Shown here: one piece after another, positions 1 through 49,668 of the stretch | How positions within the stretch are numbered: position 1 is the first letter of the stretch | Layout of the letters: every line of letters begins with the position of its first letter | From: Thamnaconus septentrionalis | Taxonomy: Eukaryota; Chordata; Actinopteri; Tetraodontiformes; Monacanthidae | Assembly (NCBI GenBank): GCA_009823395.1 | Contig: CM020501.1 | Coordinates: 9,979,361 to 10,043,360, forward strand | DNA: 64,000 nt | Direction of reading: 5' to 3' | Program-made: the position numbers and the translations under genes | Notes under the pieces: generated by a model | Database searches by the model: none | What the model was told of the DNA's origin: nothing | Seen by the model: only the letters and a program-made list of their open reading frames with translations

Positions 1-3000
1 GTGATGTGCAGCTTCACCAGGAATCCTTTGGGGACAGAAATCTTCCAGGAGGTCTGCAGGTGAGCAGGGTATGGGTTTGGATAACCTGAGGACTGGATCT
101 CTCCTTTACGGCCGGTGAGGATGACTGAACCACTTCCTGTCAAACAGCAGCAGAGGAAGGAATACTGACTGCACAATCTGAGGATGTGAAAACTTTGACT
201 TGTGCTGCGGATTTCTTTTAAAATAATGAAACCTGGGTCAATGATTTTTATAACTCTTTCATTAGATGTAAAATCTCTTTTTTCAATGCAGACAAGTTTG
301 CTTTCTGCAAAAAGCTTTGATGAATAAAGGAAGTTTTATCTCGCCACTCATGCACTGAGTAACTTGGGTACATCCTTATTTGGCTGCTGTCACCTGATTA
401 GAGCAGTAAAAAGAGCACAGCCTGTGCACAGGTGGGCTGGGGTGCACAAAGATATCACAGATTCTGTATCAGCATCAGGTGATAACAAGACGACGGAGAA
501 AGTTGTGAAATTGCTGACTGAAGAATAGAATCACAGTGTTGCAGAAAGGTTTAGGCTGACTCAAAGAAGTTCTGTTGACACAAAGTGACTGCTTTTTACT
601 TTTTCTTTTTCATTTTCTTCTACTTTTTTGTTGACTTACCCATCAACCAGATCTGGAACTAAACACAATTGTGTTTAGTTCCAGATCTGGTTGATGGGTA
701 AGAGATCTGGTTGATGGGTAAGAGATGGGTAAGAGATGGTGTACAGATGGTTTTGCACCATTAATGAGCATCCAAAAAAATACACTGGTTCAAAGGTTCC
801 ACATCATGCATAATTCATTCAACAAGAACGTCTCCTAGCCTTAGCCTTAACCTTAGCCCGCACAAGGGAAGAAGGTTCATTCTTTACTTCAGAAGTTTGG
901 AATAAATATCTCACTGTGATGTCACTAAGGGCACTGGCTCTTCACTGATATCTCTCCCAGAACTCTCACAACAACCCCAGCCAGGTGTTTTTTCCTTCCA
1001 AACATGTAGTTCCAACAGGCCTGGATGTTAGGGGAGGAAGCTAATATTGATAGCTTTTGGCAGGAAGCTGCAAACACAGGGCTAAATATGTTGTCGACAG
1101 CTCGACAGAATCAAAAATCACGACCGTAAACAAAGACCTGGCAACAATATGAGTTCATACTGTTAAACATCGAAAAGGGAAACATAAAAAAGATGAGCAG
1201 ACTTGTGTAGAAGTGTGTTTACCAGTAGTTGCGGGAATTTCTGTTGTTGTTTTTGTTGTGGTGGTGGCAGGGGCGGGGGCGACAGTCGTTTGGATAAACT
1301 TGCTGTATGCTGCATTGAATCCCTGCGAGGTCAAGGTGTGGTCGGATTTGAAGCGAACCACCATTGTGTTGAAATCGGAGGTCAGAGGCTTCGGCAACTT
1401 CGGCCCACAAAATTTACCTGCAACAAATTATTATTTAAAAGTGACTGTGAGAAAGTAATGAAGTGAAAACAGTGATAAATGTAAATTCAAATGAAGCGGA
1501 GTTCATCTTGTGTAATGGAAACAGATCTGGAATTCTATACTGTGAAATCAGTGATGATAAAGAAAGATTTTTTTTTGAGTCAAAATCAAATTCTTCCACC
1601 CTCGTGTTCCTTCCTCCTTGCTTACTCCTTGCTTTATCAAGCACTTCAGCACTACGTGTAACATGCACTAAGCACTTCATGTTTTTATTTATTATAGGTT
1701 TTTTATTTATTATATTAATTTCCTTTGGGATTAATAAAGTTTTATCTAATTTAATCTAATCTAATCTAATCTAATCTACTGCAATCAGTGTGTGATGTGA
1801 TGTTTACCGAGCGAAGTAGATCCGGGCCTGTGGCCACCGTAGACCTGAACATAGTCTCCACAGGCTGAAGGCACCAGCTCCAAAGAGTTGAATGTCAGGT
1901 GAATCCTTTCTCCGACAGGCACAGTGATTTTCCACTGAGGAATCAGAGAGATCACACGTACAAAACACATTCTTGTTAATAATTTGAACATTTACAGACA
2001 ATTTCCCCCCCTGAAAATGATTGTGAAAAAGTGCTTCAGTGGAAGTGGTAGTAGAGTGTAAATGAAAACACCATATACCTGTTCACCTATTGCACAATAT
2101 AATTTTGACAGATCTGACGTGTAGCAATTTCTCTTTTCTGTCATGCTTGGAAAGGTGTTTTAATGTCTAGAACGGCGGCATTATGACAGCGTTATGATGA
2201 CGGCCACATAACAGAGTTTATGTCCGAAGCCAGCATGAACGCAGATGACAGCCTTGCAGATGAACGGCGGTGCTTTATCCCATATAGAAAAATGTGTGTC
2301 CCAGTACCTGGTAGAGCACTGAATTGGAGTAGTTTTTCTCAGGGAATCCAGGGGTCATCAGTTCCCCCTGTTCACCTTGGAGAAATCCACCAGCTCCGAC
2401 TAATTCTGTAAACAGGGTTACAAGGAGGGGCTTGAGGGTAACATGTAGTGAAGGGACACACCTCCTGCATACCTGTCTACCGCTATTTCCATCCACCTTA
2501 TCCAACATGTGTCTTTGTCCAGTACCCATCCTGACATTTATTTTCCGGGCCAGTCGTATACAAGCCGTGTACAACGTGATGTGTCTAGACATCGTCATAC
2601 CTGATGTGAGTGCCGGATCCACAGCTTTGAAATGAGCCTTGAATCCCTTGTCTGTGTCTCTTTCATTGGAGTTGAAGTAGACTATCAGGCGGTTTGAGAG
2701 AGACACCAGAGGCATCGGCTTGGTGTCTCCACAGAATCTGCCTGAAAATATCACAATCAGACCCAACATGACAATGTACGACTTCCCACTCTGCGGTTGA
2801 AATCATTAAGGAATACAGCTGCAAAGTTAACACAAAGTGGTACAACGTTAAATGTTTAACTGCAATGCTGCTATGCTATTTATTCAATAACATTTGGATA
2901 TTCATAATGTAGAGTTATTTGTGCCTGAGGCAATGAAGATCTTTTAAAGTCTTTTAAATGAATACAACTTCAATTATTACTGCCTTGGTCTGTCTCTGTT

Positions 3001-4835
3001 CCAGTGTCAATAAAGCAATGTTCAGTGTGTTAATGAGTGAATGTGTTGAGAGCGTTAATGGACAAGTGGACAGATGTGTGCAGACTGAAGGAGCTTCTCT
3101 TTATAGGTTTACACTGCATTCTTTCTTTTAGATCAACCTTTTTGGAGTTAGAATTAATGCAAGGTTTTACCAATGATCCCCAGTGAGTCCTGCAGTGTGA
3201 TGAAGTCTCTGGAGCAGGGCTGGTCGGTCCCAATAGAAAAGTCCTCGAACCACAGATGGACAACCTACAGTAGGAACATTGCAGAGGCGTTTTAATTTCC
3301 TTTATTTCAATCTGAAGAGCTAAAAAGAGAGAAAGGCTGACGACAGCCTCTGCACACTTATGTGCCGCCGTGCCTGTATAAACGTGCCACAAACCAACTT
3401 GTCTGAAGTGGATATTGTCGTATCTGGCAGGAATGCAACCTTAAAAAAAGGAAACTCAAGTTTCGTGTTTCCTTTTGTGGCTGTTGGTAGGAAAATGTGT
3501 GTCAAATGTGGAAGTATCCAAATATTGTGTTTCAAATAGTTTCTTTTCAAGAGAAAACAGAGGATTGAGAGGTAAATGACTGCTGTATCTGGTTGGAACC
3601 AATGCAGTTAACACACATAAAGCAAAGTCAAGTTTCCTCTTGTGGCTGTTGGGAGGAAAATGAAGGAGACAGTGCAGCCATCTGTCCGAGACGCTGCCAC
3701 TGCGTTCAGCCCAGCTGTCCACTGCTTGGCCTCACATTAAACCCATCCCAAACAGCAGCTTGACAAAGCAAGAGGTCTGCTTCCCGCAACCTTGAGTGCA
3801 GGAGAAGCGGTAACAGGAAATGGATAGATGGATGGATGCATAAAAGAATTTTACCCCCCCTGGAGGTACTCTCATTACTATTCATCCACATTGTCTTTTT
3901 ATAGCCCTTTTATACTGAGTGCAGTATTACTTTTTTCACAAGGAAGGCTTGGCTTACCTCTGATACAGAATATTACCGATCTGACTTTAAAACATTATTA
4001 AACTCACTTTGCACTGTGTCATAGTCACTGTGGGAGAGCAGGAGAAATTCTCCTCTATTCTCCACGGTCGACCTCGATCAAAAGCCGGCCCTCACATTAC
4101 CCTCAACAAGAGTGTGAATGGGTGAGTAAGCGTAGGCCGAGCAGTGATGCTGAACCATGTCACCTTGTCAGGCTCCACTGTGATTTCCCAGATGCAGTTC
4201 ATGCCGTTCTTGTAGTTCTCGGGATAGTTCAAACTGGAAAAGGTTCCCGACTCTCCGGACAGCTCCATGGGGCCACCACACCCTGAGCCTGAGGACATAA
4301 TGGAAATGGATGCTCAATGTCTCACTTTGTGATCCTCTATCCTCCTTTAACAGTGCACAAAAGGTCTAAGAAAATGTTTTTTTTTTATTAAACATATTTA
4401 ATTGTTTTGTCAAAATGACACACATACATCATATTGAAATGTGTTCAGATAATGTAAAGACGTGAGCAGTGTTAATTAGTCAGAAATGGGTTTATGGGCG
4501 TTCAATGGACTGACATTGTGTGGAGTTGTTTCGCTTCTTGATAAATGCCACTCTGAGAGGAGAAACTCCTCTGATGAAAAAAAACTTTCCCACAGACAAG
4601 GAACAAAGATATCTGTCAGTGGTATTTTTCTGGGCCACACTGTGCTGAAGATCAATGCAATTTCACAGAACACACACTCACCAGCAACAGGAGTAGATTC
4701 ATCATCGTTGGTCGGTTGGTCCACGAAGTACAGGACAATGAAGGCGATGCAGACCCCAGTCATGGCCACAAAGAGAAATATCAGCATCTTTTCCAGAGTG
4801 CTCATCCTTTTCGGCCGACTATTTGTTGACTCCAT
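1..4835 (-). CDS. Type II membrane CUB-domain protein, copy A (partial, 3' end beyond the left edge)
   Basis: I do not recognise this gene by name. Exons read on the minus strand: 4835-4682, 4288-4164, 3264-3171, 2741-2601, 2405-2308, 1934-1808, 1417-1223 and 136-1 (open). All joins keep phase at GT-AG sites. Exon 1 encodes a short cytoplasmic start (MESTNSRPKR) and one membrane helix (about residues 17-41, with TGVCIAFIVLYF) and no cleavable signal, so the protein should be type II. Exons 2-4 form CUB1 (GCGG, FSSLNYPENY, NCIWEI, then GRFCGDTK). Exons 5-7 form CUB2 (TPGFPEKNYSNS, GKFCGPK), followed by a Thr/Pro-rich linker ending ATTG. The last exon starts a different CUB (GEIQSSGYPNPYPAHLQ) that looks most like those of C1r, C1s and MASP. 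A protease domain further downstream is possible, as in type II transmembrane serine proteases, but is not in the window. Copy B to the right shares exon lengths 154, 125, 94, 141, 98 and 127. Confidence 0.8.
635..733. repeat. 68-bp perfect palindrome followed by a 20-bp tandem duplication
   Basis: Bases 635-668 and 669-702 are exact reverse complements with no spacer; the centre is ACACAATTGTGT. The last 20 bases (683-702, starting AGATCTGG and ending GGGTAAG) are repeated exactly at 703-722, and an 11-base remnant follows at 723-733. It lies in the intron between the last two visible exons of copy A. It has no coding content. The layout suggests a template-switch or fold-back replication event. 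Confidence 0.9.
1599..1779 (+). repeat. 3' tail of a non-LTR retrotransposon ending in (TCTAA)n
   Basis: A sequence ending GGGATTAATAAAG followed by five or more TAATC/TCTAA units, in the intron between copy A exons 6 and 7. This is the usual form of a 5'-truncated fish LINE tail: an AATAAA signal and then a short tandem repeat. The left boundary is a guess because no target-site duplication could be read. The family is not identified; a similar tail occurs at 48145-48225. Confidence 0.5.
3778..3838 (+). repeat. Short LINE/SINE 3' tail with (GGAT)n
   Basis: CCGCAACCTTGAGTGCAGGA followed by GAAGCGGTAACAGG and ATGGATAGATGGATGG has the form of fish L2-clade tails. The surrounding intron is nearly identical to copy B up to AAGAGGTCT (3778, compared with about 14340) and diverges exactly here, so the tail was inserted in copy A after the duplication or lost from copy B. 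Confidence 0.5.
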
Positions 4836-7691: not shown

Positions 7692-8329
7692 CTAAGAGCC
7701 ACTGTGTGACGTGTTTGCTGCCGGGGCATCTGTCGGTGGGATGAATTTTCTGAACGTTGCTTTGAATCCTTTGGAGGTAAAGTAGCCGTCGGACTTGAAG
7801 CGAACCACCATGGTGTTGGAAGGAGAGATGAGCGGCTGTGGCAACGACTTCCCACAGAACTTTCCTGTGAACAACCATGGGTTAAAAGAGTTCAAAGTAA
7901 CTGAAACTTTGAATAAAGTCCATCATAATGCAGAATATCATTGCTGGACTCTTTACTTTTTCTTAAATTAAATTCATCCATATTTAGTGAACATGGCACA
8001 GAGCTCGTCTTGCTAACAGCCTGTCGTGCGCTCTCTTTCATCACTTTCTTTTCGCTTTTGGCCTGGTGTGTGAAAGTATTTTTTACCCACACTAATCTCG
8101 TTGATAAAAGAGTTTTTCTTTTTCCAACTCAATTCCTCTCCCTCTTGTGTTCCCTCCCCTCCCTCACTGAAACCAATGTGCCACATGATGTTTACCGAGT
8201 GAAGGGGCTCCGAGCTGGTGGCCGCCGAAGACCTTAACGAAGTCTCTGCAGACAAATGGCGCCAGGTCGAAGGAGGTAAATGTCAGGTGAACCCTTTCTC
8301 CTTCAGGCAATGTGATTCTCCACTGATGC

Positions 8330-8409
<80 letters not shown>

Positions 8410-10914
8410 GAGTGATTGCGGGTGAGTTTTCAGGAGCATTCAAACTGAAAAGGTGACATCAAGTATATTTTTGCCTCTGGTGGTTGTGCAAACAGTAGTT
8501 TTGACATGTTTATATTTGTAGCGTGCATCTAAATGCCTACAGCGAACGTGACATATTGGGCCTTTAAATATTTATTTTCAGTCTCTTGGAGGAAACGCAG
8601 TTGACAGCCTTGCAGATAAAGGTCAGCACCGCTTTCTCACATGTCTTGTAGAAGCTCCATTGTGTGTGCGTGTGCATATCAGTACCTGGTAGAGTGCTGA
8701 ATTGGAGTAGTTCCTCTCAGGGAATCCAGGGGTCATCAGTTCCCCCTGTTCACCTTGGAGAAATCCACCGGCTCCAGCTAATTCTGTAAACAGGGCATAT
8801 GGAGGGGCTTCAGCGTCCCAACATCCCAACATTTATTTTCTGGGTCAATTACATCCTGTGAGATGGATTTCCAACATTACAGCCCAGTCAATTTTCCTGC
8901 TGAAATGGATTCAGTCTCCTCTACCTGATGTGAGTGCCGGATCCACAGCTTTGAAATGAGCCTTGAATCCCTTGTCTGTGTCTCTGTCATTGGTGTTGAA
9001 GTAGACTGTCAGGCGGTTTGAGAGAGACACCAGAGGCATCGGCTTGGTCTTGCCACAGAATCTGCCTGCAGATATCATCACAATCAGACAAGTGTGACTA
9101 TGTACAATTTGTTTCTCTGTGATTAGAAACAAGGCTTTATAATTTAACAGCAAAAAAGGTTACAAGGAGAGTAATGCAAATGGACTGAAAGAAGGGTCAA
9201 CCCCAGCACAAGTAAAGATCAACACGGCTACAAAAGAGGGGAATGAACACAAAATAACAAACCAAAAAATAAGCTGGAAAAATGCAGAAGTTGAAAAAAC
9301 TTAAGTTCCAATAGTTATTTTATAATGGACAGCATGATCACAGATGAAATGCAGTTTTTCTGCAATGTACATATTTAGAGATTTTTAGAGCATGCAAGTG
9401 ACCAAGTTACCAATGATTGCCAGTGAGTCTTGTAGTGTGATGAAGTCTCTGGTGCAGAACAGGTCCATACCAAGAGAAAAGTCCTCAAACCACAGATGGA
9501 TCACCTGCAACACAAAGATGTCCTTGAATAGGCTACCAGCCAGGACACATACTGACAGTCATCAAGTTGAGTACAAAATCCTAACAAGTGTCTTGACCAG
9601 GGAGATTATTCAAAATTATTTTGGGCTTTATTTAGATCTTGATGGTGCAACAAAAAATTAATTTATCTGTGTCTGTGACACCTGTGATGTAGTAGGAGAC
9701 TGATGACTGAGCAATTGCATGCGGTGCAGTGATGCTGTCACCTTATTGGGCTCCACTGTGATCACCCAGATGCTTTTCATGCCGTTGTTGTAGTTCTCGG
9801 GATAGTTCACGCTAGAAAAGTTTCCTGACTCTCCCGACAGCTGCACAGGAGCGCAGCATCCTGATGCTGTATGAGGTCAAGAAGGAGGGGAGTGGTTATG
9901 GGTGCTGTCCCTTAATCTGATCCTCGAAACATGACGTCTGCACCCTGTAGTTCGCCATGTGTAAGGCATAACAACACTTTTTCTTGCTGTTTCCGGGAGC
10001 AAACACTGGGCTAAATATGGCGTTTTCTAGGGATGAATGGGGTTTTATGTGTAAAAGGTAACTAAATCCAAATGACAGGCTTATAGACATTGACCTGAAC
10101 TTGACGTTGATGCAACTTACTGTACATAAGACAGGGGCTATTTATACAAGAGGGCAGGGGAACACAAGTGAGAACAGTCAAGGGCAAGACTGACAACAAG
10201 ACACAGGTGAAAATCATGGGGTAAAAAAGGTGGGAAAACAGGAAAAGGAAGTAAATTATAGAACACACAAGGGGAGACTATCAAAACAAAACAGAAAATT
10301 ACTAACACAACAGATCACAACAAGAGGAGAGAGAGTTCACCGGAGGTTGTGGGTGTTCTTGTCGGGAAGGAGGTTGGCAGGATGAATTTTTTGTATGTTG
10401 CTCTGAATCCTTTTGAGGTGAAGAAGCCGTTTGATTTGAAGCGAACCACCATGGTGTTGGAAGGGGAGATGAGCTGCTGCGTCTTCAATATCCAGCAGAA
10501 TTTGCCTGTTGGGATCAAGTCACTGTTCATGAAGAAACTACTAAAACAGCGGCTTTGGTAAATGTACTAGAACATCATTTTTAGAACTCTGATCACAATG
10601 CAGTGTCTTAAATTTAATATTTTCAAAACTGACGCTGTTGTTTGAAAGTGTTCTGAAGAATTTTATAATTACCGTGGATAAAGATTTACCAGCGATGAGA
10701 AAAAAAATCTAAAAATCCTAATTCTCTTTGAGTAGTGCGCCCCTCTGCCCACTGAAACAAATGTGTAGTTTCAAGTTTACCGAGTGAGACAGCTCCAGGC
10801 CGGTGGCCTCCATAGACCTGAACAAAGTCTCCACAGGCTGAAGGCACCAGGTCAAAGGTGGTGAATGTCAGATGAACCAATTCTCCCACAGGCAATGTGA
10901 TCTTCCACTGAGAC

Positions 10915-10984
<70 letters not shown>

Positions 10985-12882
10985 CACACACACAAGTTTT
11001 TTTGAGATGGACAGCGAGGTCGGAGAGGTTGTCAGGGTTTCTGCGGTCTCATGTTAAATTCACTTTTTCAGTCTTTTCTAGCCAGTCAGTGAAGTTCCTG
11101 GAAATTATCAAACTGTTTTCCTTTCCTCCTTTTGCATGCTCCACTTTCCTGATGGTCTGTGTTGAATCACTCTTTTCTGGTTAGTACCCCTCTGTGACTT
11201 CACAGAGGGCTTATTTGCCTCCCCAAGGGTTCTCTCTTTGAGACCACAAAGAGAGGGATCACGACATATTAGCAGGATGCTCATTCTATGCGTTTTACAG
11301 GTAAACTGAGGGGTGAGAATGCTGCTCTGAAGGACATCTGTAGGTTATCTTTTTATTTTTATTTTTTTAAATCTATTTAACCATTTAAGGTTGCTCAACT
11401 GGGGACTGGGAGATAACTCCACTTCACATGTAGCCACTGCCACCCTGTGGCATATCTACCTTACTACGTTAGGATGAGGGGGTTAACGTGGACCTTAAAT
11501 AGTAGCACTATAACATTGCTTTGATGACCAGGTACCTTAAATGAGCACACAAACCAAGAGCAATATAATAATTTGTAAATATTTCCTATTTTGATTATTG
11601 TGTATTACCATTGTGCTGTATTGTATTACTGTTGCTCTTTACTGCTGTTGTTGACCTCCTTTAAAAGGTACTGTACCTATAACAACTGGCAGGGGGACCA
11701 CCAATGTAAACCAGCACTGGCTGAAATTGGGTACAATCACATCCTTGCAAAATGGGATGCTGTACACTGTACACTGTCTTCTTAAAAAATAAATACGTTG
11801 AAATTTAACTTGATCTTCAATATGAAGATGAGGGAACAGCCTTTGGAAACAAAGGGAAGGGCTGGCAGGCATCGACGTCACCGTTAAATACTACATGCCT
11901 CAGTCCAAATAAATCTTTGCTGAGCACAACTGACAGCATCTATTTGCAGTTGTGTTCTGGTAAATGAACTTCACCTTTTTACCGAGTCGTGCATGTCTGC
12001 ATGCAACAGCTCCCAGCAGTTTATCTGCCCTCATTATTTTACGGGTTGATATTTTGGTCCAGACTGTGTTTCTTTGTATGATTCATGCTCATGGCCATTT
12101 TTTGTATCCTGGATGTTAATTCTCTTCAGGTTTGTAGACACAGCACGTAGCTCTGTTCGTAATAAAGATAATTATATGCAAATCATTAATTTAAATTGCT
12201 TCTCAGTTTTTGGATAGGACAGAATTTGTATTTTAACCTTGTACTGCAGCTGCATTGCTATAATTTCATTCTGAAAATCCAAGCCATCTTGCCAACCTCC
12301 AATAGAAATAGAAATAGAGGCTGCCTGGGTTAACCTTTATTTAATGAAAAATTGGAAGATCAGATACAAGTTTTCACTGTGGGACTACATCTGTAATTCC
12401 AAAACTAAGAAAATGACGTATGTGTAATGTGATGATAATAAAACAAAATCTGAGTTAAAAGAACCAGCATGTAAAATTTAGCACCATCTTGTGGTAGAAA
12501 ACATATTGCAAACAAATTCATTTTGATTTGAATATTGTAAATAATGTAGTGTAGTGTTATTCCTATGACATGTGACTTATCAGCAAGTACCATTTGGGAA
12601 CAGCTAACCAAATGCTTAATCTTGTTTTTTTGTTTTAATTTTTTAATTTTTTGGATGTCTCACATGACAATGAAACCTTGAGCAGATCGGCATCCACACT
12701 TATTAGTGAATCAGCACTCTATCCATCTTACCTAACATTTGTTTACTAAATGCCTACAGTGAACGTGACATACTGGATACTGGGCCTTTAAATATTTATT
12801 TTCAGTCTCTTGGAGGAAACGCAGTTGACAGCCTTGCAGATAAAGGTCAGCACAGCATTCTCACATGTCTTGTAAAAGTTGT

Positions 12883-12924
<42 letters not shown>

Positions 12925-15900
12925 AGTACCTGGTAGAGTGCTGAATTGGAGTAGTTCCTCTCAGGGAATCCAGGGGTCATCAGTTCCCCCTGTTCACCTT
13001 GGAGAAATCCACCGGCTCCAGCTAATTCTGTAAACAGGGCATATGGAGGGGCTTCAGCGTCCCAACATCCCAACATTTATTTTCTGGGTCAATTACATCC
13101 TGTGAGATGGATTTCCAACATTACAGCCCAGTCAATTTTCCTGCTGAAATGGATTCAGTCTCCTCTACCTGATGTGAGTGCCGGATCCACAGCTTTGAAA
13201 TGAGCCTTGAATCCCTTGTCTGTGTCTCTGTCATTGGTGTTGAAGTAGACTGTCAGGCGGTTTGAGAGAGACACCAGAGGCATCGGCTTGGTCTTGCCAC
13301 AGAATCTGCCTGCAAATATCATCACAATCATACAAGACGTGACTACATACAACTTGTTTCTCTGTGATTAGAACCAAGGCTTTATAATTTAACAGCAAAT
13401 AAAGGTTATGAAGAGACCAAATGCTCGTAGCGTGTAATGCCATTTAACAGTATAACAATATAACAAAAACCATGAAAATATAAACGCCACAAAAGCAAAA
13501 CAACACAGGGTGAAATAAATGGTGATCAAACAGAAGGTGGCAGGATGTTTTTTTTTACTTCCATTCGTTTTTATATCCTATTTGCTTCACAAGCCAAACA
13601 TTGACCACAATCACTGTGCTGTGTGCCTAGAGAATCAGCCGTGAAGCCTGTTTCAGTGTAAATAAAGCAGTGTTCAGTGGACCAGCAGCAGGACTGTGTG
13701 GCTCAGTGGCTCAGAGTGTGTCCATGGATGAGTGGACTGATGGGAGCAGACTGAGGGAGCTTCTCTTACTGGTCGCTCTGCCTGTTTTTAGACACTATTC
13801 GCATTTTGTCCCTTTGGTTAGAATTAATGCAAGGTTTTACCAATGATCCCCAGTGAGTCCTGCAGTGTGATGAAGTCTCTGGAGCAGGGCAGGCCGAACC
13901 CCATAGAAAGGTCCTCAAACCACAGATGGATTACCTGTAGCAGAAATGTTGCAGAGGTGTTTCAACTTCCTTTATTTCAATCTGAAAAGCTAACAGCAGA
14001 GAAAGAGGGAAGCGCGGGAGCGACTGCATGAGCAGTGTGTGAGCGCACGTTGTGAGTTAAATGTGCCTGGAATCCAAATATTGTGTTTAAAATGGTTTCT
14101 TTTCAAGGAAGGAAACAGAAAATGGAGGTGTAAATAACTGCTGTATCTGGTCGGAACCAATGCAGTTAACACACATAAAGCAAAGTCAAGTTTCCTCTTG
14201 TGGCTGTTGGGAGGAAAATGAAGGAGACAGTGCAGCCATCTGTCCGAGACGCTACCACTGCGTTCAGCCCAGCTGTCCACTGCTTGGCCTCACATTAAAC
14301 ACTTCCCCCAAAACTAGCAGCTTGACAAAGCAAGAGGTCTTTGCTCGACGTAGAAACTTTCAAGATTTGAGATACTGGTGGTGAGTCACTTGCCTTTTGC
14401 AAAGAGTTTGTTGAGCATCTGAAAAAAATAAATCCTTCCAGTAGGTTTAATCAGTCAGCAGCACTTTGTTTGGCTCTTTTTTTTTTTTTTTTTTAACCAA
14501 AAACTGAGGCACACAGTGATGTTCAAAACCAAACTTCAGTATTAGAAGTAAGTAAGTAAGTAAGTAATTAAGTATTCTCCCTCTCATTTTCTATTTGCTA
14601 CTGCAGGTCAGACTTTCAGTGCACCGTGTGTGAAAACAGCAGAGTCATTGTGGGAGGTGTGTGTGAATCACTGAACACGCATAAGCAAAGCTGTGATGAA
14701 CCATGTCACCTTGTCAGGCTCCACTGTGATTTCCCAGATGCAGTTCATACCGTTCTTGTAGTTCTCGGGATAGTTCAAACTGGAAAAGGTTCCTGACTCT
14801 CCTGACAGCTCCATGGGGCCACCACACCCTGAGCCTGAGGACACAGAGGAGGTGGATGCTCACTGTCTGACCCTGTGATCCTGTAGATGCATCAGCTGTG
14901 TTAAATTGTCTGGAAAAGTTCCAGGCGAAAACATTTTGAAGTTGACCTCCTGCATATTAACACAGTGAAAATGCCATTAACTCACTGAGGATTCACACTC
15001 TGCACGATTGCTATTTTCCCCACTGCATTTTGGGATTAACAACAGAGATGCTTGTGTGTCTGGACCAGGCGTGGGCAAACTACGGCCCGGGGGCCATATG
15101 CGGCTGGTTATGCTTTTTAATTCGGCCTGCCGAAACTTGAAGAAATTATATTAACCGTAAGAAATAAAATAATTGAATTTAATCCATTTTTTCAGAGTTT
15201 TAATAGTAATTTATATGAAGAGCAAAATACCATGGGGCTTCAAAGACACACGTTGCAACAATTTTTTTCAATTTCAATTGACACTATAGCAAATGTTTTC
15301 TACATATCCCGTGATATATTTTTTGTTCTTATGAGGTGGGTCACCAAAACACTCCATCACTGCTCCTGCTCCAGCATACTGTCATATTTTAGAACCCATT
15401 GTGGCCCACCAGTTAAAAAGTTCGCCTACCCCCGGTCTAGATGCATAACACAGTCAATTCTTATGTAGTTATTCATTTTAGTCATTTGTCTATAAAAGTA
15501 GACCTGCAAACCCATCCTAATGGAGCTGAAGCATGCTGAGTGAAGCTGTTCCCATCGTGCTGAATTAAAAAAATAACAAAAATCAACCTGCAGAGGAAAA
15601 TTACTGTAATTCATTTTCTGGAGACCATATGTACACAAAGCATCTGCCTGAAAAAGGGTTTTTGCTTGAAATTAAATTAGCTGAACAACAACATGAAGCC
15701 ATAGTCTTACAAAAGACATTTCTAATGGTTATTTATTGGAATGCAGGCATTGCAAGGCAAGATGGGAAAAAATAAACCATGAAAAATAAAACACTAATAA
15801 ACATCCTGTGGCGTCCGCAGTGGATTGCGAAGCCTCGGCAGCAGCATTGATTATTCAGTATGTCATCATCTGCAGTCGCAGCGTGTGCTCTCCTGGGGCC

Positions 15901-16852
15901 AGGGCGGCTTCTGTTTGGAGCGCAGCTGTGTTTAACAACAAAATACAGAGCTTTTTGCGTCATTTTGGCAGAAACCAGGCGTCAGCATTCACATTGTTTC
16001 TGCCGAGTAAATGAAGCCATCTCTTAAAGGGCAATGACGCGTCTATTTCCTTACTTTTTTGTGTGTGCATGTGTGTTGGGGGCAGGAGGAGGTGCTTTCA
16101 GGGATCTTTTGTCGCTATGATGAAGATTTACTGCTGACATATTTGATTTGTATTACTTATTAGTAACCAGACTGAATGAAAACGGTAACAGCCCTCACTA
16201 CTCTGTTTCCTGTTGCTCCCCTGTTTCATCTCATCATCGAAAATAATGCACTCTAATCTATTTTTTCACAGGGAATACTGACTGATGACTGGCAACTTTT
16301 AAACGGTTTCAACATTTTCCAAATTGCTGCAACTATGCAAGAGTTTTGTTCCACGACATCTTCTAATTGACAAAATGTTCAAACTAACCGTTCAGCCTGC
16401 CTCTTCAATTCCATCTCGTAGCCCTAATTTAGCCAAAAGCAAAGTGTGTGTGACGCAATCGCTCAGCATGTTCCATGGTACAGCATGGCAAAAAAAAACT
16501 TTGGCTTTTTGGTTCTTCAATGAAAAAGAAGCAGTGAATATTACAGTTGTTTCTCAGGATTATGACCCTCATTACCATCTGTTGAAATTCAATTCAGTAT
16601 AGCAGTTTTTGCTGAAGTTTGCCAAGTTCACAGAGACGTATTAAGTCTGCCGTGTGATGCAGCTGGTAGGTGCTACTCCAGTTGAATTCAGCACTTACCT
16701 TCTACAGGTGCAGAACCTGCAGGTTTGTCAGTGAAGTAGAGGACGATAAAAGCGATGCAGACTCCGGTCACAACCACAAGGAGAACAAAAAACAGAACTG
16801 CTTTCAGAGAGCACATTTTTCTGCAGCAACCAGGACCTTCCTCTGCCTCCAT
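7692..16852 (-). CDS. Type II membrane protein with four CUB domains, copy B (complete)
   Basis: Not recognised by name. Exons (minus): 16852-16699, 14834-14710, 13934-13841, 13309-13169, 13027-12930, 10907-10781, 10505-10341, 9866-9742, 9504-9411, 9065-8925, 8783-8686, 8322-8196 and 7864-7692. They sum to 1,662 nt: 553 residues plus stop, with every junction in phase. Residues 1-16 are cytoplasmic (two Cys at 9-10), about 17-41 the membrane helix (VLLVVVTGVCIAFIVLYF), and the rest extracellular: CUB1 about 52-170, CUB2 171-295, CUB3 302-420, CUB4 421-545. CUB3-4 repeat CUB1-2 exon for exon. Odd points: CUB2 reads FCW where the others read FCG, and CUB3 reads GCCAP and MKSIW where CUB1 reads GCGGP and MNCIW, so a conserved disulfide may be altered. 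After CUB4 it ends in NTSHSGS and stop, where copy A splices on to a further CUB. Ligand and role are unknown; CUB domains usually bind proteins in a calcium-dependent way. Confidence 0.8.
8330..8409. repeat. (CA)n microsatellite abutting an acceptor of copy B
   Basis: About 38 CA units. On the transcribed minus strand this is (GU)n ending about eight bases before the CUB4 middle-exon acceptor (GTTGCATCAG at 8323-8332), where a polypyrimidine tract is normally found. Confidence 0.95.
8530..9165. repeat. Near-identical intragenic duplicate, member 1
   Basis: Covers two exons of copy B (9065-8925 and 8783-8686), their intron and flanks. It matches 12745-13410 almost base for base, including introns, with only a few substitutions and a microsatellite change. 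Flanking paralogous sequence (for example 9411-9504 compared with 13841-13934) is clearly more diverged. Confidence 0.85.
9900..10110. repeat. Dispersed repeat with the GGCTAAATAT motif (unclassified)
   Basis: The stretch around 9997-10040 (AGCAAACACTGGGCTAAATA, then GGCGTTTTC) resembles 63600-63660 (GTAAACAGAGGGCTAAATAT, then TCTGTTTTC), 50265-50305 and, more weakly, 1072-1092. Four related copies in 64 kb suggest a dispersed element. I cannot define its ends or class. Confidence 0.35.
10917..10995. repeat. (CA)n microsatellite abutting an acceptor of copy B
   Basis: About 38 CA units. On the transcribed strand it is (GU)n followed by TTGTCTCAG, the acceptor of the CUB2 middle exon (10907). 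The other end of the same intron carries the complementary (AC)n at 12885-12921. Confidence 0.95.
11188..11255. other. Two adjacent stem-loops in an intron
   Basis: Hairpin 1 pairs CCCTCTGTGA (11188-11197) with TCACAGAGGG (11200-11209) over a 2-base loop. Hairpin 2 pairs CTCTCTTTG (11232-11240) with CAAAGAGAG (11247-11255) over 6 bases. They sit in the long copy B intron 12929-10908. Function is unknown. Confidence 0.6.
12745..13410. repeat. Near-identical intragenic duplicate, member 2
   Basis: Partner of 8530-9165. It covers copy B exons 13309-13169 and 13027-12930 with their introns. The main length difference is the expanded (GT)n at 12885-12921, where member 1 has only a short imperfect GT stretch. 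Confidence 0.85.
12885..12921. repeat. (GT)n microsatellite next to a donor of copy B
   Basis: About 18 GT units. On the transcribed strand this is (AC)n beginning about 8-10 bases after the donor GTACTGGGAC of exon 13027-12930. It is complementary to the (GU)n at the 3' end of the same intron. Confidence 0.95.
15066..15434. mobile_element. Nonautonomous hAT-like element
   Basis: The left end CAGGCGTGGGCAAACTACGG and the reverse complement of the right end (CCGGGGGTAGGCGAACTTTT) are imperfect inverted repeats of the type common in vertebrate hAT elements (CAGGGGTGGGCAAACT). Flanks GTCTGGAC and GTCTAGAT could be a worn 8-bp target duplication (6 of 8). It has no transposase. It lies in intron 1 of copy B. 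Confidence 0.65.
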
Positions 16853-26409: not shown

Positions 26410-28626
<2,217 letters not shown>

Positions 28627-37611: not shown

Positions 37612-39497
37612 TCAATTTCTGTCCTCAATCCGCTTCTTGGTGACCATCATCGCTCTCTTGATTTGCTCGAACGAGACGAACATCACAACGTTCCACGAGC
37701 CCAGCCTTAGAAACGAGGGCACAAATCTGTGCAAAGGAGGTAGAAAAAAACAGACAAAGAATATTATTTCATCATTGCTCACTTTAACCAAACAACAGGC
37801 GGGAGGCGGAGTCGTGGCAGAGCTCACCCTTTGTAGAATGCGGTGGGCCCCTCTTTAGTCAACATGGTCCAGGCACAGTTGATAGCGCTCTTGTACTGGC
37901 CTGGTGGTGAGTTCATGTACCTGGTCTTGACCACGTCTACGGGTGAGGCGATCACCGTGGTGACGAATCCGGCGCCGAAAGCAGAGACAAAGTGGCAGGG
38001 CAGGTTGTCTGCGGGATTGAAACACACAACCCTAAATCAATGAGGTCCGTTGTGTCAAACGTGTCAGGCGGGTTACGCAACCCCCTCCCTCCCCCCGCCG
38101 TGAGCAGAAAGCCACTGAGTGAATGAGATGAATCATTAGTTTATGTACTAACTGCCCCGTTTGCGCTATATCTTCATGTACCGCGGCTCGCTTATCAGCC
38201 GCAGCGGAGTTAAAAGCCTGAGTGGGTGTGTTGGTTTCTGCCCAGTCAGCTGTCACAGTGGGAGGGTGTGTGCGTGCGTATTGGAGCAGCGGCGCTCACC
38301 AGACAGGAGGTTGTGCCTCAGGATGGCCTCTTTGATCAGGTCGTACGTCACCAGCTCTGTGCAGTTCACCAGCGCGTTTCTCGTGATGTTGGGCAGAGTC
38401 CCTGCGCGGAAGAGGTGGCGTGAGCGAGACCGTCGGGTCCAAATGAAATGTCGTGGACTTGACGTTCAGCAGTGGAGCAGCACGGGATAATGGGTGACGC
38501 ACCTTTCCAGAGGCCGCGGAAGCCCTCCAGCTGGTATATCTGTTTGTAGGCCTGCATGGTGCCGCTGTAGCGCCGAGCTACGCCGCTCAGGTTCATCTGG
38601 GCCTGGAATCGAACCTTCACCACGTCGGTGGGCTGTGCGAAGGACACGGCCATGGCACCCGTGGTGCAGCCGGCCAGGATGCGGATCAGAACGCTCGGGT
38701 CTGCAGAGGGGAGAATTCGACAGCGGATGCGTTCAGACAAATACGTAATAGTGATTAATCAAAAGCGCTTGAATGCACTCTGGTGATGTCTGATTTTTAT
38801 TTGTTTTTTTACCACACTGTGAGCCAGCTTCCATTTGTATTTATTTTATCTCCATCGCCACTAAAATCCAGCACCTGAGTACCAAGCAGCATTCGCCCTA
38901 CAAGGGAAATCCCCCAATTTCCACCTTTGTCAACACAGCCAAGCACTCACTGTCTTTCCCCCCAGTGTAGAAATTCTTCACGTTGTCATAGAGGCCTATC
39001 CTGATGGAGGCGAAGCACAGTTGCCTCTGGAGACCTGCCACCAGCCCGTTGTACAGGGACCGGGGGCCCTCGGTCCGGACCATGGTGCTGATGGTTCCGA
39101 ACACGCCCCTGTAGCGGATGCCCTCCACGGCATTCTTCTCTCCCTGGATCTGGGGTCACAGTCAGAGCTCAACGCCCAGAACTCACAGAGGAAAAACACA
39201 CTAACTACACACTGAACTGTGCAGCACAAACAGCAGGGATATTGATTCATTGGAGGGGGAAAGTTGAAAACCCGCTCAGTTGACTTCGTGAGGCCCTTTC
39301 TTGTTGCAGTTTGTCGGTGTGCGGTTGAGATCACTTTTTTTTATTGTGAGGATTTTCTACGAATCATATACCTGAAGCCTGACTTTGGCCGTGTCCAGGG
39401 GGAACGTGATGAGGTCGGCGAAACAGGCCGCCGCACCAGCGCTGGCCATCTTTACCCCGAGCGGAGGGGGAACGTCCGAGGGCTTCAGTCCCACCAT
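37612..39497 (-). CDS. ucp1: Mitochondrial uncoupling protein 1
   Basis: Exons 39497-39372, 39149-38951, 38700-38503, 38401-38300, 38008-37828 and 37726-37612 sum to 921 nt: 306 residues plus stop, all phases consistent, the usual six coding exons. It is a mitochondrial inner-membrane carrier that conducts protons and dissipates the gradient in mammals; its role in fish is debated. Three carrier repeats show [20 protein letters not shown] and [11 protein letters not shown]-terminal [18 protein letters not shown] matches the UCP nucleotide-binding segment. UCP2 and UCP3 are close relatives, so the name rests on the neighbours elmod2 and tbc1d9, the classic UCP1 locus. The mammalian UCP1 histidine pair (HLHG) is absent: the segment reads [16 protein letters not shown]. 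Confidence 0.94.
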
Positions 39498-46500: not shown

Positions 46501-49500
46501 CTGGACCTTAAAGGAGTGACCCAAAAAAAACCAACAACAACAACAACAACAAAAAACAAAACAAAAAGCTGATAGTAATGCAGCTGTTACGTCTACGAAA
46601 CCCAACAGAGTTTTTGGAAAATAATGCTTCATAATTAGTTTATTTGGATATGTGGTAAAAGCAAGACAAATGAAAAAAAAAGGTTCATGCTAGATTTCCT
46701 ACCTAGCTTGCTTTCAGCAAGGAGACAGAAGAGTTGTGCTAAGTGCTTCGATTGTGATTTAGCGCTTTACAAATAAAAGCTGATTGATTGATTGAGTCAT
46801 CAATCAATGTGATACAGGTGGTCTGAGGGCTCAAGACCACAACAAGCGCTGACCTTGAAGAGCACGTAGAGTTCCTCCAGTTCGTCGATACCAAAGGCCG
46901 TCTCCGTGACGATGGTCCTGACCTGGAACAAGCAATTGATAATAGTCAGTTAAGAAAACAGGTCAGATTCAAAGTGAAAAGAGTCCTGAGAGTCAGCTGA
47001 TGCTTGACTTTAAGAAGCAGGAGGTGGATTCTCACCACGTTGCGTTTAGTCGTGTCCTCGATGGTTTGAATGACCCTCAGTCTTTGCTTGAAACGCATCT
47101 GCTCGATCACATCCGCACGGATTGAACCAAATTTCTGCCAAAAGACGCAGGAGGATTAAAGCCGACATTAGACACAGACACTGATTCTTAAACGCGCGCC
47201 AGTTTGCTCCTGTGCCTTTAAAGCAAAAAAAAAAAAAAAAGATAAAGCAAGACAGGTTTACCTCGTAGGAGCTGCGCACCAACTTGAAGATGTCGACCTC
47301 CGGGTGTGGTTCTCCATTGTCCGTCAGCAAGGAGTGCAGGTGGGGGATGGGAGGGAGCGTACTGTCCTTATTGGTCACACTGTCCAAGTATCTGAGGGAA
47401 TAGAAAAAAAGCCGATACGTCACATGAGCAAAGGAGAATAAAGAAACTAGAGAACTGGACCTTTTCTTTTCCTTCTCCCTACCTGCCCAGAACCGTCATG
47501 GCCTCCCCGTCGTCCTTGCAGCCCAGCAGCTGGTGGATGTTGGCGTGCAGCACGGACAGCGCCAGCTGGAAGATGACCTTGATGCCGTCGTAGAAGAAGC
47601 AGTCCACGACCACCACGGCGCTCTCGAACGGCATGACGGACAGGAAGAGGGTGAGGAACCAGGAGAGCGAGATGGTGGAGATGACGCCGAGGTCCTGCAT
47701 GCAGTCGTACAGCTGGGGGACGTAGTCGCGGGCCAGCTCCTCAAACACGCCCTGATCCACCAGGGCCCCTGGAGAGGAGACGCAGCAGGAGGCAGGAGAG
47801 GTCGTCGTGAAAATTTGTGCCTTTGCTTATCCATCCAAATATCAGTAATATCTATACCAGTGTTAGTATTGGTAATATATTGTATATCAAAATTAGCCAA
47901 ATGGGATTGAACTATAGATTTGATAGATCTCAATATTGCATTTGTTTATATTGAATACAATGTTTAGACTATTACAGGGTTGCAAGTTCAAATAAAACGG
48001 TTTTGTTTTGTTAGTCATGAAATGATTCTATCGCGTGCAATTACAACAGAATATTTATGCTTGTCCTATTTATTTCACCCCTGCTTCTGTTTTTCTGTAA
48101 AAAAAAAAATATGTTTTTTGTTTTGTTTTTGTTTCTACTAGAAATTTTAATTTCCCAGTGGACACTGTCTGAAAGGATCAATAAAGTTTGATCTGATCTA
48201 ATATAATCTCATGTAATCTAATTAAAAATACGAAAAATACTACAACAAATACTACAAAACACTAACAATCACACTAAAAAATGACAAATACTAAAAAATG
48301 TCATTCAGACTGAGCAATTTGATGATACATTTCTTTAATTACCTATTAGTATTGGAGATAGTGGCCCTGTTTATCAGACTGATACCAAATCTAGCTTACC
48401 CTTTAAAGTCGTACCAAGAAAAAAGCTGTGGAAATTCTTTTTGTTGTGGTTTTTTTTGTGAATTTTTTTATTTCCTTGGGGCAACAATAGCAAAATTAAA
48501 TTTTTGTTTATAGACCATACATGTAAACCGAGTGGTTTATTTTGGTTTCAACTCATTGTCAATAGGATCCAAGGACTCAAAATGTGCTCGACCAAACAGC
48601 TGAGCAGAAAAAAATGGCTCTGAGTCACAGAGCCACGGCCACACACTGACCTACAACCCTGGTGTTGTAGTAGTCGGGCAGCATCCGCTCGCACAGCGCC
48701 ACCAGCAGCCAGAAGGCCTCCTCTTCTTTGGCGTAGAGCAGCAGCACGGACGTCACGATGTTCATGGCCTGAGGCGTCCAGGGAGACAAGAAGCAGTTCA
48801 AGCACATGGGACGGCCGCCGCGTCGAGTCGCGTTAAGATCAAGAGAGAGACAGAGGGAGCGAGCGAGTGAGTGAGCGATCGAGCTGCTGCACCTGACAGT
48901 ATCCGATGTTTGGGTTTCTGAAGGCGTAGGCGGTGAGGACCCTGCGGAGGGCGGCGATGCCCATCTCGTTCTGAAAGGCCGGGTGCTCGGGGAGGGAGCG
49001 GTGCAGGTCCCGCTCAATCTCCTCGGTGGCCAGGTTGTATTTGCCCATGGACTTCTCCACCAGGTCCTCGTAGTATCCGGGGTGGGTGGCCATCTCGTTG
49101 ATCGCCCCTGTGCAGAGAGATTTACATTGCTGTGAACCCCTTACTCTACAAATGTCAGCTATCAAAATGTCTTGGTTTCAGGACAATCCTGTCTCTCAAA
49201 ATAAATTGCGCTTTCTCCATGTCATGGTGCACCTGTCTTGTGGTCAAAGTAAAACATGTTTCAGAATGTCAAATCTTCTGAAATACATACTGGTATTTAG
49301 ATTTAAAGCAAATTCAACTTTTGCCATTGGATGTGAACTCTTTAAATTGGCCATTCCAAGTGGCAGAATGCCAAGAATCAACCAAAGGCGGCCGTATCGT
49401 AAATGATTCAGTCTGGAAATTTGTTGGCTGCTCCATCCCTGTTTCTGCAGAGTGATGAGTATGTCTCCCTCTATTGGCCCTTGAAAGTCATTACACAAAC

Positions 49501-49596: not shown

Positions 49597-49668
<72 letters not shown>

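Follow-up and report, generated by a model that had tools for sequence, protein, structure and literature searches.

Intron B5, which separates exons 5 and 6 of gene B (10908-12929; 2022 nt, phase 0, GT...AG), carries a long AC tract beside its donor and a long GU tract beside its acceptor, and these tracts are predicted to pair into a helix that brings the two ends of the intron together. We regard it as an evenly balanced proposition that B5 is a genuine intron, of phase 0, with an AC/GU helix that juxtaposes the splice sites and aids their correct choice. The window, the whole stretch of 64,000 nucleotides analysed here, contains two related genes that lie, with all of the features described in them, on the minus strand. 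Gene B (7692-16852) has 13 coding exons with no internal stops and introns of the GT...AG type, and its 553-aa product contains four CUB domains, formed by a two-CUB unit present twice, and a membrane segment judged by eye. No protease domain was found in the gene B protein; some fish relatives carry one. Among 64 protein matches the best seven are to fish, at 42-52% identity and with 54-99% of the query covered, and the eighth is to a tunicate. Gene A (1-4835) also encodes CUB domains; it begins with its start codon inside the window and extends beyond the window edge.

The location of B5 (12929-10908) and its length were as an earlier note on this DNA had claimed, and the flanking exons (13027-12930 and 10907-10781) join in frame, as it had also claimed. 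The frame is open over the junction and the splice sites are coherent, so far as expression of gene B can be read from sequence alone, and the intron is probably spliced as drawn. The AC tract (12885-12921) consists of 37 nt, (AC)18 plus A, spanning intron positions +9 to +45, which bears out the claim of an (AC)18 within 10 bases of the donor. The GU tract (10916-10994) is 79 nt long and is built of 16 nt, a C and 62 nt, with 8 nt left to the intron end, AG included. Its earlier description as (GU)38 is true of length (39.5 units) but not of purity, because the C interruption limits the longest pure run to 31 units. For a placement test, 10 AC/GT runs of at least six units were merged into eight tracts, which were given random positions in the window and random orientations in 1,000,000 trials. 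An AC tract within 15 nt of the donor together with a GU tract within 15 nt of the acceptor in one or more of the 19 annotated introns arose in 1.6e-5 of trials, a value that serves as a guide only because the 15-nt limit was set after B5 had been seen and B5 was itself picked by a reader.

B5 has two homologues in the window. Intron A5 of gene A (1935-2307) contains only ACACACA at +9 and no GU tract, and its acceptor is ordinary (longest pyrimidine run of 7, AG-free stretch of 35 nt), in agreement with what had been claimed for this copy. The earlier comparison was restricted to these two copies, however, and overlooked a third homologous intron within gene B that does have a GU tract. This paralogous intron, B11 (8323-8685; 363 nt, phase 0), bears a GU tract of 79 nt (8331-8409; 13 nt, a T and 65 nt, with 32 pure units) whose last base is followed by 8 nt of intron, so that the tracts of B5 and B11 are equal both in total length and in distance from the intron end. 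At the B11 donor there is a short interrupted AC stretch of 15 nt (8661-8675; edges set by eye). That B11 keeps a full GU tract with just 15 nt of AC is a point against a bridging function. The donor hexamer GTACTG is identical in B5, B11 and A5 and does not demand a helix, because A5 has the same hexamer and no bridge.

Duplexes were computed between the first 60 nt and the last 110 nt of each intron and compared with 5000 pairs drawn at random from the window (median -24.5 kcal/mol). The predicted energies were -87.4 kcal/mol for B5, -51.2 for B11 and -22.7 for A5, and random pairs as low numbered 1, 14 and 2981, respectively. Partition-function folding of each intron with 40-nt flanks gave about 49 expected bridging pairs for B5, 21 for B11 and 1.2 for A5. 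The AC and GU tracts of B5 were thus predicted to pair and to bridge the splice sites when the folding check suggested for this intron was made, and the helix may form in cells. The predicted B5 helix reaches past the repeats, with +4 to +10 paired to -1 to -7, and the probability of being unpaired is 0.04-0.07 at donor +4 to +6, 0.06 at the acceptor AG and 0.48-0.81 at donor +1 to +3. Coverage of donor +4 to +6 and of the AG is a point against the bridging model, in that it could hinder U1 and U2AF1; the A5 donor is predicted to be even more tightly paired than that of B5, through other structure, which makes donor occlusion a weak argument either way. The best B11 duplex lies within the GU tract, from -46 on, and not at the AG. 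Donor +8 and acceptor -5 are G-C in B5 and U-A in B11, which by eye looks like a compensatory change; it was given no weight because the best B11 duplex does not use that pair.

The acceptors of B5 and B11 are set apart by AG-free stretches of 131 and 120 nt, compared with 15-38 nt for the other 17 of 19 introns. In both, the GU tract is preceded by matches to the branch-point consensus, which in B11 is a CTCAC with its A at 8423. The B5 candidate is a CTGAC with its A at 11032, 124 nt ahead of the last intron base, identified by match to the consensus; it is followed immediately by a pyrimidine-rich stretch (16/20, starting at -121) that precedes the GU tract, candidate and stretch together occupying 10995-11035. 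The branch point may lie here, with the long UG tract between it and the AG. The proximity of a pyrimidine-rich stretch to this candidate is a point against the bridging model; it suggests that binding of U2AF2 to B5 may persist. The earlier note cites a lowered need for this factor in teleost introns of this kind, and B5 may or may not share it. The claim that GU repeats stand in place of a polypyrimidine tract therefore holds only in part: the best 20-mer in the last 60 nt of B5 has just 12 pyrimidines, but the same is true of B3, B9 and A3 (11 in B11), and B5 has its 16/20 stretch from -121. No alternative acceptor was seen for B5, the nearest upstream AG lying beyond the 131 AG-free bases, and the alignment of the whole of exon 6 to its homologues is ungapped.

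Under the proposed mechanism, the donor AC tract and the acceptor GU tract of B5 would form a long helix that brings donor and acceptor together and effectively shortens the 2-kb intron. The same helix would fold away the GU spacer that otherwise lies between the acceptor AG and the branch point. The outcome would be an aid to splicing, in that the right pair of splice sites is helped into use. B11 may work likewise with a shorter helix. Both introns combine a GU tract with a long AG-free stretch, which suggests that such helices could have, besides juxtaposing the intron ends, a second role in folding away the sequence from branch point to acceptor.

The presence of two GU tracts and one long AC tract in a single pre-mRNA raises the possibility of exchangeable partners. 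The B5 AC tract forms almost the same duplex with the B11 GU tract (-85.6 kcal/mol) as with its own (-87.4 kcal/mol). Pairing of B5 AC with B11 GU would splice exon 5 directly to exon 12, leaving out exons 6-11; these total 750 nt, and their loss keeps the frame and creates no stop, giving a two-CUB protein of 303 aa rather than the 553-aa form. In a nested fold, B11 AC would pair with B5 GU, a geometry suited to a circular RNA of exons 6-11. The minimum-energy fold of a 4832-nt stretch has this exchanged arrangement, with 37/37 B5 AC bases on B11 GU and 14/15 B11 AC bases on B5 GU; its energy is -1325.5 as against -1317.6 when B5 AC is forced onto its own GU, a difference of less than 1%. The partition function for a shortened sequence of 3195 nt places B5 AC on its own GU at 94% (37 C) or 98% (25 C), with pairing to B11 GU at approximately zero. 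In that model, B11 AC is paired with its own GU at 84% and with B5 GU at 13% at 37 C, and at 1% and 96%, respectively, at 25 C. When separate duplexes are summed, ordinary pairing is ahead by about 3 kcal/mol, and the order of transcription would also favour the tract made first. We hold it to be quite unlikely that tandem duplication has produced two bridging introns with exchangeable partners in one pre-mRNA and that repeat length acts as a dial between four-CUB and two-CUB proteins. Paired or tandem bridging introns were absent from the titles and abstract openings of the literature matches listed, among which subscription papers were few.

The duplication history is more complex than had been proposed. 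Exons 4-5 and 10-11 of gene B are identical, and a 391-nt stretch (12924-13314) matches the other unit base for base (9070-8680, by offset) and stops just short of the B5 AC tract, while the exons following B5 and B11 are identical at 98/127 positions. Trees were built with blocks from 6/64 matched proteins for exons 2-3 and from 7/64 for exons 6-7. The three copies A, B1 and B2 group together relative to the fish relatives used in both trees (support of 98/97 and 99/96, respectively). Exons 2-3 do not resolve the copies, A and B1 both having short branches, whereas exons 6-7 group B1 with B2 (81/77); the three copies are a mosaic. Of its two repeats, only the long AC tract sets B5 apart from both of the other introns. 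The earlier view that the state changed after duplication is too simple. A history of that form, with copy A left ordinary and copy B altered once duplicated, was rejected on three grounds: the GU tract is common to B5 and B11, the sequences of exons 4-5 and 10-11 do not differ, and the two blocks have no single history. As judged from these comparisons, the GU tract would be older than the split of the B units, or would have passed between them, or would have grown in parallel.

The anatomy of B5 may instead have arisen by neutral growth, if short AC and TG seeds beside the splice sites were expanded by slippage and were tolerated since the branch point and pyrimidines stay upstream, leaving a helix that exists on paper and has no function. 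We consider this explanation possible but doubtful. Copy A has plausible seeds, in ACACACA at +9 and a TG-rich sequence ahead of its acceptor, B5 retains the upstream CTGAC and 16/20 pyrimidine stretch, and an (AC)35 at 49598-49667, in the region of a TBC gene, does not lie at any visible splice site; UG repeats are in any case enriched near human splice sites according to excerpts of PMC12276007. It accounts less readily for two 79-nt tracts that both end 8 nt before the intron end when the exons that follow match at only 98/127 positions, or for an AC tract that begins at +9, given the 1.6e-5 for random placement. A different fate for the B5 acceptor, by analogy with the (UG)m of CFTR exon 9, would be regulation of the exon by proteins, with TDP-43 on GU and hnRNP L on AC. 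There are 31 pure GU units ahead of the acceptor, and, as a portion of PMC12697283 has it, (GU)6 is bound with picomolar affinity by the RNA-binding part of TDP-43; available sections of PMC12171016 attribute CFTR exon 9 skipping to TDP-43 at an upstream UG-rich sequence, those of PMC12276007 report enrichment of UG repeats of at least 12 near both human splice sites, and papers on hnRNP L and CA repeats are on record. Skipping of exon 6 alone (127 nt) would, however, shift the frame and meet a stop after 210 residues, so that strong repression would cost the protein, and the GU tract would be contested by its AC complement. Regulation by bound proteins is an unlikely account. Skipping of exon 12 alone meets no stop in the joined exons.

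The GU tract could also fold on itself into a pUG quadruplex, in place of pairing with AC, and block or delay use of the acceptor. Excerpts of PMC12276007 state that the fold needs 12 repeats and that at least 24 give double folds in vitro, and B5 and B11 have 31 and 32 pure units, respectively, but the same excerpts describe double folds as slow to form in vitro, and an AC strand transcribed earlier in that RNA would probably sequester the GU repeats. We consider this reading very improbable. We give least credence to the idea that gene B is a partial duplicate in decay, with little expression, or that its repeat lengths are assembly errors, such that the anatomy is without consequence. The protease domain of some fish relatives is absent from gene B and the 391-nt stretch is perfectly duplicated; against the idea stand the intact frame of 553 aa in 13 exons with GT...AG introns and the sequence around the identical 391 nt, which differs between units, so that the stretch is no simple assembly duplicate.

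If the helix of B5 does work, then the three introns form a ready-made series with the same GTACTG donor, from A5 without a bridge, through B11 with a short AC and a long GU tract, to B5 with both tracts long. This series would test how much AC is needed, whether GU precedes its AC partner and what results from two bridging introns in one transcript.

Zebrafish and other fish were reported by Lin et al. (2016, Genome Res 26:12-23) to have AC/GU-bridged introns. B5 resembles this class in having complementary AC by the donor and GU by the acceptor with a predicted bridge; the AC-at-donor, GU-at-acceptor orientation matches and is a point in favour of the bridging reading. In so far as the class is characterized in the accessible parts of its sources, the likening of B5 to it was apt as regards orientation, position and predicted helix, and B5 likely belongs to it. 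Minigenes and mutagenesis back the class (excerpt of PMC7404189), which is mentioned for zebrafish in a passage of PMC9198270 and spoken of as short introns in one from a citing paper (PMC6883713). B5 differs in its 2-kb length and its pyrimidine-rich sequence at the branch-point candidate, and in that another intron of its gene has a GU tract of equal length. The (TG)m(T)n acceptor of CFTR intron 8/exon 9 likewise has a long UG tract just upstream, and both TDP-43 binding and RNA structure are named for it in parts of PMC12276007 and PMC12171016; in that case the tract causes the exon to be skipped, and those parts describe no AC partner at the donor, whereas B5 has a long one. The intronic complementary repeats that drive back-splicing into circular RNAs flank a block of exons, and are paralleled by B5 GU upstream of exon 6 and B11 AC downstream of exon 11, although the B11 stretch is short (15 nt) and the pairing is favoured in some folding models only. 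End-matched AC/GU repeats are a known arrangement in fish, and a duplicated intron with an equal GU tract is the less usual feature of gene B.

Intron B5, between exons 5 and 6 of gene B (12929-10908, minus strand; 2022 nt, phase 0), carries two repeat tracts on the transcribed strand: 37 nt of AC at +9..+45 from the donor, and 79 nt of GU with a single interruption, stopping 8 nt short of the intron's end. Its paralogue in this gene, B11, which follows exon 11 (8685-8323, minus strand; 363 nt, phase 0), was absent from the earlier note. There too the GU tract totals 79 nt and stops 8 nt short of the end, with one interruption located elsewhere than in B5, but the AC stretch is only 15 nt and is interrupted. 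In gene A the corresponding intron, A5 (2307-1935, minus strand; 373 nt), contains ACACACA and no GU tract. The earlier note describes A5 correctly, but its proposal that the repeat state changed after duplication has to be corrected because B11, within gene B, also carries a 79-nt GU tract. Approximately 1.7 kb inside B5 (10998-12745) matched nothing else in the window at an E of 1e-10 and has no counterpart in B11 or A5.

The 10 AC/GT runs of 6 or more units in the window, merged into 8 tracts, were placed at random a million times. In 1.6e-5 of these trials at least one of the 19 annotated introns had AC no more than 15 nt from its donor and GU no more than 15 nt from its acceptor. This value serves as a guide only, because the 15-nt limit was chosen after the case was seen. 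In humans, moreover, repeats of at least 12 UG are enriched near splice sites (PMC12276007). A family scan matched 4 of 10 open stretches, all on the minus strand, with two of the four being the same TBC region: GRIN_C (26413-28560), mitochondrial carrier (38369-38758) and RabGAP-TBC (48628-49177). A plus-strand (AC)35 at 49598-49667, within the region of this RabGAP-TBC gene, is a useful comparison tract; no splice site was seen at it.

Genes A and B are related and adjacent on the minus strand. Gene A starts at 4835, leaves the window at base 1 and resembles fish CUB proteins, some with a trypsin domain, its own CUB domains being detected with Pfam; one of its introns has a 68-nt perfect inverted self-match (635-702), partly overlapping a 20-nt tandem repeat. 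Gene B (16852-7692) has 13 coding exons, which join without an internal stop to encode 553 residues, and all 12 introns are GT...AG. Pfam (E 0.001) detected CUB in four stretches but nothing from a protease family. Reading the sequence by eye suggests a single membrane segment near the start, and the product is apparently a membrane protein. The best-matching relatives in the database (P0001-P0005) come from fish and carry the names tolloid-like protein 2, cubilin or ovochymase-2. As three of these five have a trypsin domain (PF00089) and no protease family was found in gene B, gene B looks like a relative without the protease, whose exons 8-13 appear to repeat the two-CUB unit of exons 2-7.

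The two units are base-for-base identical over 391 nt (13314-12924 versus about 9070-8680), covering exon 4, intron 4, exon 5, the first six bases of intron 5 and their counterparts, while the other exon pairs (2/8, 3/9, 6/12 and 7/13) are 74-84% identical, with 98/127 positions shared by exons 6 and 12 downstream of B5 and B11. Because this identity stops just ahead of the AC tract, it suggests recent gene conversion between the units with an edge at a microsatellite.

Predicted duplexes between the first 60 and last 110 nt reached -87.4, -51.2 and -22.7 kcal/mol for B5, B11 and A5, energies equalled or bettered by 1, 14 and 2981 of 5000 pairs drawn at random from the window, and folding of each intron with 40-nt flanks gave about 49, 21 and 1.2 expected bridging pairs. 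The B5 helix is predicted to extend beyond the repeats, and because +4..+10 pair with -1..-7 (counted from the intron's end), donor and acceptor may be nearly in contact. This helix would mostly cover the acceptor AG and donor +4..+6 but leave donor +1..+3 partly open; the best B11 duplex lies inside the GU tract, from -46 on, away from the AG. Since the A5 donor is also predicted to be tightly paired, through other structure, the predicted masking of splice sites carries little weight.

The GU tracts coincide with unusually long AG-free stretches ahead of the acceptor (B5, 131 nt; B11, 120 nt; remaining 17 introns, 15-38 nt). The nearest branch-point matches lie immediately upstream of the GU tracts: CTGAC in B5, with its A at 11032, and CTCAC in B11, with its A at 8423, respectively 124 and 100 nt ahead of the final intron base. 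A 16/20 pyrimidine stretch directly follows CTGAC; in B11 pyrimidines reach at most 13/20 between CTCAC and the AG, and 14/20 in the last 140 nt. The earlier note read the GU tract of B5 as standing in place of a normal polypyrimidine tract. The region near the AG is indeed poor (12/20 at best in the last 60 nt; 11/20 in B11), but a score of 12 is shared by three other introns of these genes and the 16/20 stretch is kept upstream. Rather than lacking a pyrimidine tract, B5 is thus best seen as having a candidate branch point and a pyrimidine stretch that a long GU spacer sets apart from the AG.

The presence of two such introns in one transcript raises the potential for cross-pairing. The duplex of the B5 AC tract with the B11 GU tract (-85.6) almost equals that with its own (-87.4), and a junction of exons 5 and 12 would drop the 750 nt of exons 6-11, keep the frame and leave a 303-aa protein. 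Folding results conflict over the preferred partner. The minimum-energy fold of 4832 nt favoured the distant GU tract by under 1%, with the B11 AC stretch paired to the B5 GU tract; however, the partition function of a shortened 3195-nt version assigned 94-98% of B5 AC pairing to its own GU tract, with about 0 for the tract of B11, and the B11 AC stretch paired 84% with its own GU tract at 37 C and 96% with that of B5 at 25 C. Distant pairing of B5 AC with B11 GU is possible but probably minor.

The strongest rival to bridging is neutral growth of repeat seeds, still visible in copy A, into these tracts. Next comes regulation by proteins, with hnRNP L acting on the AC tract and TDP-43 on the GU tract (for TDP-43 on GU, PMC12171016 and PMC12697283). 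If exon 6 alone were skipped, the frame would shift and a stop would follow after 210 residues; no stop is met in the joined exons when exon 12 alone is skipped. Ranked third, the GU tract may form a pUG quadruplex (PMC12276007).

Under the bridging explanation, the B5 AC tract, being transcribed first, would most likely capture the GU tract on its emergence. The sequence and the predicted pairing are what the analysis shows; in the steps we infer beyond them, pairing would draw the splice sites together, shorten the intron and fold away the spacer between branch point and AG. Some fish introns have AC- and GU-rich structures at their boundaries, supported by minigenes and mutagenesis according to a review (PMC7404189, section 4.1). 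The tracts and predicted bridging helix of B5 fit its earlier comparison with this known class of fish introns, of which it is probably a sound new member, with one unexpected feature: a paralogous partner intron, B11, in the same gene.
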